Part shown: in pieces, positions 110 to 4,211 of the stretch
Layout of the letters: each line of letters starts with the position of its first letter
Numbering within the stretch: position 1 is the first letter of the stretch
Assembly: GCA_024434165.1 (NCBI GenBank)
Contig: QMIW01000011.1
Span: forward strand, 1-59,908
Direction: 5' to 3'
Length of the DNA stretch: 59,908 bases
Origin: Chloroflexota bacterium
GTDB taxonomy: Bacteria > Chloroflexota > Anaerolineae > Anaerolineales > Villigracilaceae
Program-made: the position numbers and the translations under genes
Notes under the pieces: generated by a model
Seen by the model: only the letters and a program-made list of their open reading frames with translations
What the model was told of the DNA's origin: nothing
Database searches by the model: none

Positions 110-574
110 TTACGGTATCCAGTTGGACAATACATTTACAACCAAGTCGGGATTGTTGGGATCATTTGTTTTCAAGTGAACCGCAAAATTGTGCGGACCG
201 TCCATGCCTTCGTGCATCATGAAGACGCTGGACTGGACAATTGTGCTTTCACCGGGTTTGAGTACCATCGAACCGATGGTCAATTGGGGCGGTCAGCACC
301 CCTCGACGACTTCGATGTACGGCTCTTCCTTGAATCGCAGCGTGCCATTGCCCGTGTTGGTCACTTTGATGGCGAAAGTCTTTTCCACATTAAACTTCAC
401 GTCGCCATAGTCAATCAACTGTTGATCCACTGCGATGGATGGCGTGCCGCCGCCATCCCCCTGACGCGCGAACAAGAATACGGCAAGGGCAACGAACACT
501 CCGCCCAGCGCCAGGAAAAGCCAGGGGAAATTTTTCTTTTTCTGCTTTTGATATTTTTTGTCTTTCTTGCTCAT
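110..574 (-). CDS. DUF1573-type membrane-anchored protein, probable selenoprotein with a Cys-Sec motif
   Basis: Translation from ATG 574 (AAGGAGG seven bases upstream) gives a Lys-rich N-terminus, one membrane segment (about residues 16-36) and an Ig-like DUF1573 domain. Codon 94 (295-293) is TGA, directly after Cys93. Downstream the frame continues as PPQLTIGSMVLKPGES and stays open, with family-like sequence, to TAA at 110, for 154 residues in all. From memory, homologues have two adjacent Cys followed by Pro-Pro here, so TGA sits where a redox or metal-binding Cys is expected. A hairpin with a G-starting apical loop lies 18-19 bases after the TGA. It is the last gene of the cupredoxin/cytochrome operon, which suggests a role in thiol chemistry or copper handling outside the membrane (inference). 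The alternative is a nonsense mutation giving a 93-residue truncated protein. Confidence 0.8.
258..295 (-). promoter_or_regulatory. Candidate bacterial SECIS element following the in-frame UGA
   Basis: On the minus strand the TGA at 295-293 is followed after 12 bases by ACCATCG (280-274), loop GTT (273-271) and CGATGGT (270-264). This is a perfect 7-bp stem. Opening the last C-G/G-C pair leaves a loop GGTTC, like the G-rich apical loops of known bSECIS elements. A TTG/CAA pair (283-281 with 260-258) can extend the base of the stem past a small bulge. The distance from UGA to the loop falls within the range reported for bacterial SECIS elements (roughly 16-37 nt). Confidence 0.65.
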
Positions 575-605
575 AGAGCCTCCTTGCGACGTAAGAGAAC
601 GCCGC

Positions 606-1580
606 CTACTCGTATTCAAACTGGAACGAGTAGATGTACGCAATCAAATCCCAGATTTGTTCTTCGGTAAAAATCACGCCCCACATGGGCATGCCGGTTC
701 CCATGCCGCCGCGCAGGATTTTCCCTTGTAACAGTGCGGGGCTTGCGCCCAACATGCGTCTTGGATTGGTAAAGTCAACGGGGGTTTGCATCACCATGTC
801 CATTGCACCATCCATCACCTGCATGGAGGCTTCGCCCGCTTCCGCAAGATCATCGGCAAAGACGCCGTCGCCTGCGCCGGTCTCGCCGTGACATGCCGCG
901 CAATTTTGGGCGTAGAGTTGCCTGCCATTTGCAAGCGATTCGGGAGTAGTGTTGGATTGCCAGAAATAGGCGACGGCATCCCAGCGTTGCGAATCCGTCA
1001 GAGATGTGGCGGATAAATCCGTGAATGCTTGATATGGAGAATGTGAGCGGTAGTAATCCAAGGATTGGAGAAATGGAGAATTGGGGCTTAATTCCTGACC
1101 GCGAATCGCGGAAGGTTTCTGTTCGGGCAGAATGGAGGAATCGTGCGGAGCGTCAAGGTCGAGGTTGAGGGAAACGTAGAGGGGAACAGAAGCAGGCTCG
1201 GATGAGTCTGAGGCGCCGCTGACTTCTATCGTACCGCGCATCCGCCAGTGATTGAGTCCGCACCAGCGCGTGCAGTAGTAGGTATAAACTCCAGGCTTGT
1301 CGAAAGTCAATGTGATGTCGGTGACTTTGCCGGGGAGGACATCCACGCTTTGCATATCCAACTGACCGACTGCGAAACCATGCACGACATCATCGGAAGT
1401 GATCTTGAGATGAAGGGGCTTGCCAACTTCCGCCTGAATAACATCGGGATTCCAGCCGCCAGCCTCTGCCATGCGAGCATGGATCAAGGGCGTGCGCGCC
1501 CAAAAAACCAATGGCGCGACAACAGCAAGCAAGATGCCAGAGATAACCAGGAAACGGGAGATGAGTTCGGAACGTTTCAT
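606..1580 (-). CDS. CuA cupredoxin (COX2-like) fused to cytochrome c
   Basis: This 324-residue protein has an N-terminal membrane anchor (about residues 10-28) and a COX2-like cupredoxin domain with all CuA ligands visible: His67, then Cys103-x3-Cys107-x3-His111-x2-Met114. A class I cytochrome c domain follows, with heme motif CAACH (227-231) and Met-rich segments near the C-terminus that could supply the axial ligand. It resembles subunit II of caa3 oxidases in composition, but only one membrane helix is evident and no subunit I gene is in the window. It is therefore better called an electron carrier or terminal donor of unknown partner. ATG 1580 overlaps the upstream stop as ATGA, indicating translational coupling. 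A longer frame to 1619 exists but lacks support. Confidence 0.85.
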   Translation of the reverse strand: MKRSELISRFLVISGILLAVVAPLVFWARTPLIHARMAEAGGWNPDVIQAEVGKPLHLKITSDDVVHGFAVGQLDMQSVDVLPGKVTDITLTFDKPGVYTYYCTRWCGLNHWRMRGTIEVSGASDSSEPASVPLYVSLNLDLDAPHDSSILPEQKPSAIRGQELSPNSPFLQSLDYYRSHSPYQAFTDLSATSLTDSQRWDAVAYFWQSNTTPESLANGRQLYAQNCAACHGETGAGDGVFADDLAEAGEASMQVMDGAMDMVMQTPVDFTNPRRMLGASPALLQGKILRGGMGTGMPMWGVIFTEEQIWDLIAYIYSFQFEYE

Positions 1581-2917
1581 AACAATAACCAAAGCATGAT
1601 GGATGTGGCGACGAAACAATAAACGATGACAGGGATTGGAGAAGCCCCCGCTTCATTCACCTTTTGGGCTGTTCGCGCCGACCAGACCAATCCTACGACC
1701 AGGGCGAGTGTCTGCGCAGGCGCGAGAATGGATGTAAGCATGGGTTGCCACGCCGCATTTGCCGTGCTAAACAAATTCCAGCCAAGACCCAGCGGATCGG
1801 ATAATGCGGCGAGGATGTAGGAGGCGTTGGTGAGAACGAAGGACAGGCTGAATGCCACCCAGAACATAAGACCAAGAGGAATGAGAGAACTGGAGAATTG
1901 GGCAAATTGTTTTTTGATGGTCTCCCCTCCCCCCGAATTAAGAGAGATGTTGGGAGTGAGGGCAACAGTGAGATAGAAAGTTCCTGGAAGCAGAATAAAA
2001 ATAATCGCAAGGAAGATCACAGCATACGAGATCCACGCCCCTGAACCGACATTGTAGGCTGCATCTTTTATCGCACCCCACGGACCCAGCAGCACGCCCG
2101 CATAGATCATCGCCGAGCCGAGCATGATGAAGGCTTTGAAGGTTTCATCCATGCGGGTGGATGGTTTGGCAAGGTCAGCGGAGAAGGGACGCAGATTAAT
2201 AGCGATGTTGTCATGCGGACAGGTGCGGATACATTCCATGCAAAGCCCACAGAAAGTATTCTTCGTCATGCCGCCGGGGAAGACATCCCACGGACAGCCA
2301 TATCCGTTTGCGGAGCCGTTGTAACAAGGCTTGCCTTCACAAGTTACGCAGATTTGTTTATCTTTGATGCGCAATTCGATGGGAGCCGTTTGGGAATACA
2401 GACCGATAAACCCGCCAACGGGACAGAGATAGCGGCAAAAGGCGCGGCGCTCGAAGACGGCGCTCAGTCCAATGGCGGCGAAGAGCATGGCAGCAAGGAC
2501 GATGCCTGTGACATTCGGAGTAGTGAGCAGAACACTACTGAAGAGAGCAAGAAGAAGAAACGCGATATTTTGCAGCCAGATGTTGCGGAACATCTTTGGC
2601 ACGCGCAGGTTGAGCCACTTTGGTTTTTTCTCCGGCGGACTTAATACTGCGCCGTGCTGTAGCCATTCCCCTGGCAGTGGGATCGGGCAGACCGCGCACC
2701 ATCCGCGCCCGAAGAATGGGACGGCGACAAGAATCAGGATTGCCCACCATGCGATCCACACAAAGACGATACTGAAGTTATGACTCCCAACCGGAGTGCC
2801 GATGAGTCCCGCAAGGATGGCAAAGATGTAACCGACCAGCATCACGATGAAGACTGCCAATTGCGGGTAACGGCTTTTGAGAGCGGATTTGAGGAGGGGG
2901 AGGCGGGTGAGTTCCAT
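1577..2917 (-). CDS. Membrane polyferredoxin, NapH/NosR/CcoG-like 4Fe-4S protein
   Basis: The 446-residue protein has several membrane helices (about 20-42, 48-68, 118-155, then more in the C-terminal half). It has the membrane-edge CxxCP and CxxxCP motifs (Cys73/Cys76-x-Pro78; Cys161/Cys165-Pro166) typical of NapH, NosR and RdxA/CcoG. Two cysteine sets follow at 190-208 and 223-233, the second a classic CxxCxxCxxxCP ferredoxin site. The family moves electrons from the quinone pool to periplasmic copper or molybdenum enzymes, or reduces copper for assembly. Here it is flanked by two CuA proteins. No Shine-Dalgarno is visible: the bases just upstream of the ATG are part of a short repeat, so coupling to the preceding gene may be needed. 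Confidence 0.8.
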   Translation of the reverse strand: MELTRLPLLKSALKSRYPQLAVFIVMLVGYIFAILAGLIGTPVGSHNFSIVFVWIAWWAILILVAVPFFGRGWCAVCPIPLPGEWLQHGAVLSPPEKKPKWLNLRVPKMFRNIWLQNIAFLLLALFSSVLLTTPNVTGIVLAAMLFAAIGLSAVFERRAFCRYLCPVGGFIGLYSQTAPIELRIKDKQICVTCEGKPCYNGSANGYGCPWDVFPGGMTKNTFCGLCMECIRTCPHDNIAINLRPFSADLAKPSTRMDETFKAFIMLGSAMIYAGVLLGPWGAIKDAAYNVGSGAWISYAVIFLAIIFILLPGTFYLTVALTPNISLNSGGGETIKKQFAQFSSSLIPLGLMFWVAFSLSFVLTNASYILAALSDPLGLGWNLFSTANAAWQPMLTSILAPAQTLALVVGLVWSARTAQKVNEAGASPIPVIVYCFVATSIMLWLLL

Positions 2918-2924
2918 TTCAGTA

Positions 2925-2966
2925 ACCAGTGAGCAGTTATCAGTTATCAGTTATCAGTGAGCAGTG
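2925..2966. repeat. Short tandem-like repeat (CAGTTATCAG type)
   Basis: Units close to AGTTATCAG and AGTGAGCAG alternate here and recur at 39450-39490. The element covers the end of the CuA gene and the ribosome-binding region of the polyferredoxin gene. The last residues of the CuA protein (LLTDN) and its stop codon are encoded by it. Confidence 0.7.
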
Positions 2967-3402
2967 GAGAACGTTGGAAGAAGAGCAATCCGAAGATAGC
3001 GAGTATGGAAAAACCAATTGAACGATATAGCCAATCGTTTGTGCCGACCGTCAACTTGCCGATCATGAAAGGATGCATGGCTCCGCAGGTGACGTTGCAT
3101 CGGAAGCGGAAGGAGCCGGGCTTGTCTGCAACGAAGGTCAGGGTGGCGCTTTGTCCGGGGTCGGCTTCGACGGAAATATCGTAACCATCCACATACAGAC
3201 CGTGGACAACGTCGGTGCTGGTGAGATGGATGGTCACCGTGTCGCCGGGGTTGACGTGAAGCTCAGAGGGAGAATAGGCAAATTGTCGCGCGTCCATCTC
3301 AAATGTCCGGTGTTGAGGCGCGGCAGGCTGAACTGGCAGGGGCACGAATGCCACCACCAGTCCAGCCAACACAAGAAGGAGAAGAGAGAAATGCGATTTC
3401 AT
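2947..3402 (-). CDS. CuA-site cupredoxin with N- and C-terminal membrane segments
   Basis: The 151-residue product starts with a hydrophobic signal or anchor (residues 5-22) and has one cupredoxin domain. It has a complete CuA ligand set: His67, Cys102-x3-Cys106-x3-His110-x2-Met113. A second hydrophobic helix (about 123-143) follows, so the domain probably sits outside the membrane between two anchors. CuA centres accept electrons from cytochrome c or quinol-linked carriers in cytochrome oxidases and N2O reductase; this small stand-alone form has no assigned enzyme. ATG 3402 lies four bases after the preceding stop, so coupled translation is likely. The C-terminal tail runs into a repeat element. 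Confidence 0.85.
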   Translation of the reverse strand: MKSHFSLLLLVLAGLVVAFVPLPVQPAAPQHRTFEMDARQFAYSPSELHVNPGDTVTIHLTSTDVVHGLYVDGYDISVEADPGQSATLTFVADKPGSFRFRCNVTCGAMHPFMIGKLTVGTNDWLYRSIGFSILAIFGLLFFQRSPLLTDN

Positions 3403-3406
3403 CAGG

Positions 3407-3853
3407 TTAGGGGATATTGGAAGGTCCGTATTTGGAATATGTTGCGTCAATGTATGCCCTGGCATCTTGCGGACTTTTACCATCTTGCAACATGCGCATC
3501 ACATCTTGAGTAATATCCACGCAGATGGAACAGCCGAGGGCGTGATTATCAAAGGTGATGCTGCCATTCGCATCCACGCCCGAAACGTAGCAATCGTAAT
3601 TGGAGGTGTGACCAACGCTTCCGCAGCCGCAATAGCAGGGAATATCCTGCATGATGTCGGGGTTGGCGGTATTGAATTGGTACGCCTCCTGCACAGCCAC
3701 GGGAGCGGACTGAACATCCATTGGCATTTGATCGAGCGGGGACATGGCAAGATGCACACCATCAGAATTGGATGTGGAGCAGGCAGAAACCGCAGCGGCG
3801 GTCAGCGCCAAAATAACGAGAAGGAAAAGAAACTTTCTGGTCTTTGAAAACAT
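3407..3853 (-). CDS. PCYCGC-motif lipoprotein
   Basis: ATG 3853 follows an AAGGAGG site. The 148-residue product has a lipoprotein signal with lipobox ending in Cys25 and carries the family signature PCYCGCG (72-78). Further cysteines lie at 88, 108 and 111. The signature defines a family of small surface-anchored Cys-rich proteins whose function I do not know; metal binding, probably copper or iron, is a reasonable guess from the cysteines and from the copper-protein neighbours. It precedes the CuA gene in the same transcription direction. The longer frame to 3934 is rejected because the signal peptide and ribosome-binding site fit 3853. Confidence 0.8.
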   Translation of the reverse strand: MFSKTRKFLFLLVILALTAAAVSACSTSNSDGVHLAMSPLDQMPMDVQSAPVAVQEAYQFNTANPDIMQDIPCYCGCGSVGHTSNYDCYVSGVDANGSITFDNHALGCSICVDITQDVMRMLQDGKSPQDARAYIDATYSKYGPSNIP

Positions 3854-3905
3854 ATTGGGTCCTCCTTGTTCGGATGACCCAATGGTAGTCTGACAACTCG
3901 AATGT

Positions 3906-4211
3906 CTACAGCGCAGTACGGCGGATGGGGACATGCGCCAAATGGCTTATGACGAATATCCCCTCCATTTCCTGACTTAATTCTCCCCTATGAGATATTC
4001 CACGTCCTTGTTTTCCTTTTGCGTGATGCTGATTTTCACGCCTGAGCCAGAAGAGAGTCACGGCGGTGGCGGCGCCAGCCATGCCAGCCAGAACCACCAG
4101 GCTGGATGCCGAGCCAAATAACGTCTTCCAAAATACGGCGAACAAGATCACACCGATGACAAACGCCGCGATGCAGGAAAGGTTTGGCATGTGGATTCTT
4201 GGGTGTTTCAT
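3906..4211 (-). CDS. Small two-helix membrane protein of unknown function
   Basis: The 101-residue frame has two hydrophobic segments (about 10-30 and 37-55) and a basic, polar C-terminal tail rich in His, Arg and Lys. I do not recognise a family. It sits between the sensor kinase and the PCYCGC lipoprotein on the same strand, which makes it a likely member of the redox operon. The C-terminal third looks low in conservation and the true end is set only by the stop codon. Confidence 0.55.
   Translation of the reverse strand: MKHPRIHMPNLSCIAAFVIGVILFAVFWKTLFGSASSLVVLAGMAGAATAVTLFWLRRENQHHAKGKQGRGISHRGELSQEMEGIFVISHLAHVPIRRTAL

Follow-up and report, generated by a model that had tools for sequence, protein, structure and literature searches.

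A DUF1573-related protein of Anaerolineae with a very probable vicinal cysteine-selenocysteine pair, often encoded beside CuA genes

The closest described relative of the protein reported here is itself a selenoprotein. The original prediction for this locus knew of no selenocysteine (Sec) form of its family, and on this point it needs correcting: two reviews (PMC9312934, PMC13188914) list a DUF1573 domain-containing selenoprotein with motif UGC, in which Sec occupies another column. The table in PMC13188914 (2026), for which a total of 119 families or subfamilies is given, includes no DUF1573 form with a Cys-Sec pair, and the text of that review treats different Sec positions or motifs as separate subfamilies. 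DUF1573 was not met in the accessible part of PMC8318568. The open-licence PMC literature yielded no paper on a G-C-U-P DUF1573 form, and nothing useful on selenoproteins of Anaerolineae or Chloroflexi, on copper together with DUF1573, or on CuA together with selenoproteins. By our own equation, the reviewed UGC form is probably the NCBIfam family NF041425, OS_HP2 family (seleno)protein.

As described in these reviews, the UGC form shares with the present protein an Ig-type family and a Sec residue adjoining Gly-Cys, but the Sec column differs, the motif being U-G-C there and G-C-U-P here. With an ordinary CGC DUF1573 protein aligned as a stand-in for the UGC form, the residue beneath the Sec column was Thr and not the first Cys, and only the second Cys was common to both. 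C-G-C is the usual motif of ordinary DUF1573 members. The present protein lacks the C-G-C found in such members (L158, L128) and has x-G-C-U/C-P instead.

The window, by which we mean the whole stretch of DNA analysed, is contig C53 (59,908 bases), one of the 173 contigs that make up a draft genome of 4.4 Mb. The gene and its elements are as follows:

110..574, minus strand: coding sequence of the very probable selenoprotein, 154 residues counting Sec94 (ATG 574-572, TAA 112-110)
579..585, minus strand: ribosome-binding site AAGGAGG, read directly from the sequence
467..529, minus strand: codons 16-36, the one hydrophobic helix at the N-terminus, preceded by a Lys-rich start (predicted helix 16-36 and hydrophobic sequence)
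293..298, minus strand: codons 93-94, the vicinal Cys-Sec pair in G-C-U-P-P (TGC 298-296, UGA 295-293)
264..280, minus strand: bSECIS-type hairpin (5' arm 280-274, loop 273-271, 3' arm 270-264)
191..217, minus strand: codons 120-128, M-H-E-G-M-D-G-P-H, a conserved Met/His segment (M120, M124, G126 and H128 invariant in alignment A4)

Reading the sequence reproduced every coordinate first proposed for this gene: the ATG at 574 with AAGGAGG ahead of it, and a frame from 574 to 110 that is open save for the TGA at 295-293, directly after Cys93, and continues for 60 more residues up to TAA. Under translation table 11 the frame stops at the TGA (ORF 293..643).

The codon is retained across the genus and the class. 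Within the genus, 25/57 genomes had a match, and exactly one in-frame TGA was present in 33/35 match rows, the remaining two rows being short fragments that start no earlier than the UGA column. A profile built from 18 genus sequences (A1) and used to search genomes of the class found matches in 71/396 genomes and 51/222 genera. From 112 distinct segments, dropping the motif-less matches L111, L118, L158, L159 and the second L095 and merging duplicate DNA left 106 distinct segments around the column, source copy included; 100 of these have TGA, 4 TGC and 2 TGT, with Gly-Cys before and Pro after. Outside the 106 stand G019:C80, G016:C40, a partial copy and a fragment in G042, a fragment in G047, G274:C19 and a fragment at G208:C229. 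Two further Cys copies, L111 and L118, both in G273, were found after this count. Cys occupies the column in 8/8 non-TGA copies having the motif, and in the copies examined the column is thus either Cys or TGA, in keeping with what had been suggested for homologues. Protein identity to the window protein falls as low as 32% in the wider set; the UGA codon has therefore outlived most of the sequence.

Selection on the protein continues beyond the codon, a further expectation of the original prediction that was borne out. Median dN/dS was 0.066 before the Cys-Sec pair and 0.046 after the hairpin (528 pairs from 33 host-family sequences). The next in-frame stop in the 100 Sec-form genes was TAA in 56, TAG in 22 and TGA in 22, so UGA is still a stop codon in these organisms. 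Sequencing error was rejected as an explanation, the identical TGA being present in many assemblies; among them is L220, from a record titled as the complete genome of Leptolinea sp. HRD-7 and not marked as a metagenome-assembled genome (MAG).

Several genomes hold more than one copy. G182 (L088) and G298 (L135) each carry both a Sec and a Cys copy, adjacent to one another in G182. The single-contig genome G042 has an intact gene and a second, broken one (G042:C1 near 4,125,080-4,125,534). In G005, two copies with the same gene order (L047 and L048; G005:C1 near 2.57 and 3.41 Mb) lie ~837 kb apart, and other doubled matches lie ~843 kb apart, reflecting a large duplication or an assembly artefact.

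The 7-bp hairpin that had been predicted 12 bases past the TGA was confirmed at 280-264. It reads ACCATCG-GTT-CGATGGT, and its loop, GTT (273-271), lies 19 bases after the TGA. Bacterial SECIS elements are hairpins just 3' of the UGA with a small loop that has G in its first two bases and lies ~16-37 nt away, and the position and loop found here agree with this rule. The loop starts 18-19 nt after the UGA in 98/100 TGA forms, and 3 nt later in L139 and L151.

Base pairing was assessed in alignment A2, which holds 72 of the 100 TGA forms, all distinct (7 of the 33 from the host family and 65 others). Six pairs (columns 16-21 with 27-32) were formed in 99.5% of 432 cells, with two-sided changes at three of them (G-C to A-U, U-A to C-G and G-C to A-U). 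Against shuffles, a control that ignores relatedness, there were 53 two-sided cells versus 14.7 and a covariation score of 0.397 versus 0.215, each matched by 0/500 shuffles; two of the five shuffle measures were non-discriminating (pairs with two-sided change, 3 versus 3.0; further pair types, 7 versus 7.0), both being matched by 492/500. Sliding the partner by 1-3 columns, a control that does take account of relatedness but favours a structure derived from the same sequences, left only 6 to 70% paired. The control that we trust most, though small with its six Cys forms, is the comparison in fixed register, where each of the six pairs holds in 94-98 of 98 TGA forms (L139 and L151, with one extra codon ahead of the hairpin, being omitted) and in 0-4 of 6 Cys forms. 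The innermost seventh pair holds in just 68/98 TGA forms, and we therefore take the common core to be six pairs. The register was fixed because a free search for the longest stem proved a poor test, since a number of TGA forms gave alternative 8-bp pairings, and Cys forms gave 6-bp stems at other places. Folding energies overlap (TGA forms mean -13.0, sd 3.8; Cys forms -4.7 to -17.8).

Nucleotide conservation agrees with the pairing. Among the 65 TGA forms from outside the host family, the loop reads R-G-U-N-N, with G in 65/65 and U in 64/65, and five codon third positions within the hairpin are identical in 64-65/65, the flanking ones being mixed. In the 33 host-family sequences, mean pS is 0.285 in the 11 hairpin codons versus 0.644 before and 0.660 after, so that synonymous sites are frozen in the hairpin. 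Because the stem spans codons, pairing constrains the protein sequence: T-I-G-S-M-V is encoded with one stem and V-V-G-S-T-T with the other, and the Cys forms differ at these residues. As judged from these comparisons, the hairpin is an RNA element. An Rfam scan of the region gave three matches, all far below their gathering scores, and no T run follows the hairpin.

The source genome carries all four of the Sec genes that the original prediction proposed looking for. These are selA (544 bits), selB (C98, 327.6 bits, above cut-off), the tRNA-Sec gene selC (C49, 67 bits, anticodon TCA) and selD (C50, 367.7 bits), which has one in-frame TGA of its own. An FdhA-like match in the same genome, below cut-off, likewise contains one TGA. 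Outside the genus, selA was above cut-off in 54/65 genomes having a match. With G116 set aside, its sole match being an ordinary DUF1573 protein, selA passed in 51/59 Sec-form genomes versus 2/5 Cys-only genomes (one-sided Fisher test ~0.03); among the latter it is present in G297 and G303 and absent from G273, G339 and G376, the last a single-contig genome. No selA match was found in the Sec-form genomes G181, G222, G236 and G352, and fragments or weak paralogues only in G102, G379, G386 and G402. Most of these eight are fragmented drafts, which may be the cause.

Within the genus, tRNA-Sec was above cut-off in 47/57 genomes and 22/25 gene carriers (not in G007, G050 and G055), and selB in 54/57 and 24/25. 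These counts use the cut-off alone; matches by E-value occurred in all 57 genus genomes and in all 14 control genomes, so bare E-value matches mean little. With 32/57 genomes having no match to the gene, its presence within the genus does not track that of the machinery.

Taken together, the comparison strongly supports the selenoprotein with a Cys-Sec pair that had been proposed (100/106 TGA, a covarying hairpin, Sec genes). Because the UGA is kept, a conserved hairpin follows 12 bases on and all four Sec genes are in the genome, we regard it as almost certain from sequence that UGA 295-293 is read as Sec and that the gene encodes a selenoprotein.

The distribution of the gene was also followed at the DNA level, independently of protein similarity, by scanning genome contigs with the pattern GGNTGYTGACC-N10-RYCRTCRGTNNGRYGRY. 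There were at least 116 matches, and 110 of the 116 listed encode the selenoprotein in frame, judged by profile. The record titles among the matches listed are mostly Anaerolineae, Anaerolineales or Chloroflexi, followed by Methylomirabilota/NC10, Rokubacteria and unnamed bacteria, with one each of Acidimicrobiia, Gemmatimonadetes, Pseudomonadota and Clostridiales; these taxa are only those named in the titles, most of the records are MAGs, and binning errors may account for some of them. The other 6/116 matches are one Pseudomonas sequence, present in several strains (L210, L215, L218, L240, L247, L273), that does not encode the selenoprotein. Viral contigs scanned with the same pattern gave 0 matches.

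The proposed assignment to DUF1573 stood for the relatives and less well for the window protein. Among relatives, 49/50 match DUF1573 at E <= 0.01 (L099 with 43.3 bits); the window protein itself scores 17.7 bits against the Pfam model (PF07610), under the cut-off of 26.1, and its link to the family is one that these sequence matches draw through the relatives. Against NF041425, 45/50 relatives match at E <= 0.01, L099 scores 32.8 bits (cut-off 100), and the window protein has no match at E <= 1. An AlphaFold2 model (75 sequences including the window protein, Sec written as Cys; mean pLDDT 92.6) has helices at 3-14 and 16-36, then an all-beta domain. Foldseek and VIA-align group it with Ig domains of the ASH/HYDIN/MSP/PapD-like kind, the best structural match being 2qsv (Z 13.2, rmsd 2.1, 103 aligned, 20% identity), an uncharacterised Porphyromonas gingivalis protein with an Ig-like fold, for which the record title states no function. 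The protein is accordingly predicted to be a membrane-anchored Ig domain of the ASH/DUF1573 type. Helix 16-36 is likely the membrane anchor, which would place the domain outside the cytoplasm. A common fold says nothing about function.

Conserved residues point to a possible site. In A4 (75 rows; L197 and L276, among 76 non-redundant named sequences, were left out), the invariant residues are G57, N73, G75, G92, C93, Sec94, P95, M120, M124, G126 and H128, with H121 frequent yet not invariant; the G, C, C(U) and P of the Cys-Sec motif are invariant both there and in A3 (50 rows). We propose that a metal or redox site has the Met/His segment 120-128 as its second half.

Four operon partners precede the gene on its own strand:

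606..1619, minus strand: CuA-type COX2 domain joined to cytochrome c, with a provisional start codon (PF00116 43 bits, PF00034 53.6 bits)
1577..2917, minus strand: membrane protein carrying Fer4_5, weakly matching NapH/NosR (PF12801 37.4 bits; TIGR02163 35.3 bits, below cut-off)
2947..3483, minus strand: second CuA-like cupredoxin (PF13473 40.6 bits, PF00116 34.1 bits)
3407..3934, minus strand: PCYCGC/CYCXC lipoprotein (PF13798 102.9 bits; NF041379 65.2 bits, cut-off 90)

The operon order is thus CYCXC, CuA cupredoxin, NapH/NosR-like, CuA-cytochrome c and, last, the selenoprotein gene, upstream of which the CuA-cytochrome c gene ends by 31 bases. Ahead of the operon are a sensor kinase and a response regulator, judged by eye. 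The two CuA-type proteins and the NapH/NosR-like protein (606-3483, minus strand) make up an electron-transfer set, and no partner enzyme is apparent in the window. The CYCXC family (OS_HP4, PF13798/NF041379, motif UxxC) shares the operon and is not homologous to the selenoprotein. The copy at 3407-3934 has Cys (HALGCSICVDI) where some relatives have TGA and is likely a Cys form. Elsewhere, an in-frame TGA is found at HAxxU-x-x-C in 4/98 distinct CYCXC copies (L123, L108, L107, L211), which gives some loci a second likely selenoprotein gene.

This arrangement recurs. Of 207 loci examined, 201 have the gene, the same contigs being partly counted twice; a CuA-cytochrome c gene occurs in 90 of the 201, on the same strand in 90/90, upstream in 73 and downstream in 17, at a median gap of 86 bases. 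Other partners are CYCXC (84 loci), NapH-like (65), CuA cupredoxin (61) and CopA-type ATPase (24), and HMA, multicopper oxidase, FTR1, ArsR and redoxin genes are recurrent neighbours. Merging repeats of the same DNA reduced the 201 loci to 160 distinct copies, often on short stretches; CuA-cytochrome c adjoins 70 of these, NapH-like 56, CuA cupredoxin 52 and CYCXC 78. In all, 102/160 copies have one or more of the four partners beside them, and none of the four is in the stretch around 58/160, some of these stretches being cut by contig ends.

SelB binds the hairpin of a bSECIS and delivers Sec-tRNA to the UGA; here this would yield a protein of 154 residues in which Cys93 and Sec94 form a vicinal pair. 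The N-terminal helix would anchor the protein in the membrane with the Ig domain outside. In the predicted model, the Cys-Sec loop and the one that bears M120, M124, H128 and, as a rule, H121 would lie at the same pole of the seven-strand Ig fold, given the strand order, in which Sec falls between 86-91 and 98-100 and the Met/His residues between 110-115 and 126-136. The two loops together could form a soft-metal (Cu(I)) site, a selenenyl-sulfide redox site or both, with which the protein would load copper into the CuA centres of the operon's electron-transfer chain, or keep them reduced. Because the gene so often shares an operon with two CuA genes, a NapH-like gene and a CYCXC lipoprotein gene, we propose copper loading of CuA centres, or the upkeep of their thiols, as the most likely job, with a little under an even chance of being right.

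Other accounts of the protein have to be weighed against this one. It may be an envelope thiol/selenol oxidoreductase or peroxide reductase that works without metal, with neighbouring redox proteins supplying a cycle in which Cys93-Sec94 forms a selenenyl sulfide. The vicinal G-C-U pair would suit such chemistry, CcdA-like (by eye) and TlpA/redoxin-like genes are found near some copies (9/201 loci each), and PMC13188914 holds that most uncharacterised Sec proteins probably have redox functions. However, a metal-free enzyme leaves the invariant Met and His residues unexplained, as it does the association with genes for CuA proteins, CopA-type ATPase, HMA and multicopper oxidase. We therefore consider this account possible, though on balance doubtful; gene context leans to copper.

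That the protein is no assembly factor but belongs to the CuA-cytochrome c complex as a partner, structural or electron-carrying, is suggested by 69/201 loci in which the CuA-cytochrome c gene lies upstream in the same orientation and ends less than 200 bases away. With no electron-transfer cofactor motif visible, and with copies such as L224 and L168 around which none of these genes is seen, we consider this unlikely.

Two further readings dispense with Sec. It is very improbable that the UGA is a real stop, as the table 11 ORF (293..643) would have it, with a 93-residue fragment as product and the hairpin a terminator or remnant, and we reject this on account of the dN/dS of 0.046 after the hairpin, the covarying stem that is absent from Cys forms, and the lack of a T run. 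Genome-wide reading of UGA as another residue, for example Trp, would also leave the frame open, but is rejected as next to impossible when 22/100 of the same genes terminate with TGA, the non-TGA motif copies have Cys in 8/8 cases and a tRNA-Sec with a TCA anticodon is present.

In summary, the copper reading has the CuA operon and the Met/His residues on its side. In its fullest form, which we put forward tentatively and hold to be on balance not probable, the subfamily, which is widespread in Anaerolineae and, going by record titles, also occurs in some other phyla, would be a Sec-dependent assembly factor for copper sites, acting in CuA maturation. Such a factor would combine Cys-Sec and Met/His ligands on an ASH-type Ig domain, would serve an undescribed envelope electron-transfer chain, and would have a SECIS hairpin that dictates part of the protein's own sequence (T-I-G-S-M-V or V-V-G-S-T-T).

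The locus also has wider uses. Translation with table 11 cuts these genes at the UGA, and a conserved, probably envelope-bound protein from a large group of environmental bacteria is thus easily missed by annotation. Sec forms that keep the hairpin and Cys forms that lack it amount to a natural experiment for Sec decoding, in a set where RNA pairing also constrains the protein. One CuA operon now links two orphan families of which Sec forms are known (the DUF1573 type and CYCXC), and this makes a function testable.

Mammalian thioredoxin reductase ends in Gly-Cys-Sec-Gly and so also has a vicinal Cys-Sec pair after Gly; the pair is alike, whereas fold and position are unrelated. Among periplasmic copper chaperones, PCuAC has a PCuAC domain and Sco a thioredoxin fold. 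Neither a PCuAC nor a Sco domain is among the Pfam matches listed for the protein, and no copper chaperone is among the structural matches listed, from which no exclusion follows. In Table 1 of PMC13188914, motif CU is given for form 2 of the 2Fe-2S 'copper chaperone CopZ family', SaoC, MbdU and KCU-star, and the SO_0444 Cu/Zn efflux transporter is a case of Sec in a metal-handling protein; the domain identifiers listed there set these Cys-Sec and copper selenoproteins apart from the present one. Since Cys-Sec and copper-chaperone selenoproteins are already in that list, both ideas have precedent. A DUF1573 selenoprotein as such was known; what is new here is the Sec column, the lineage and the operon.
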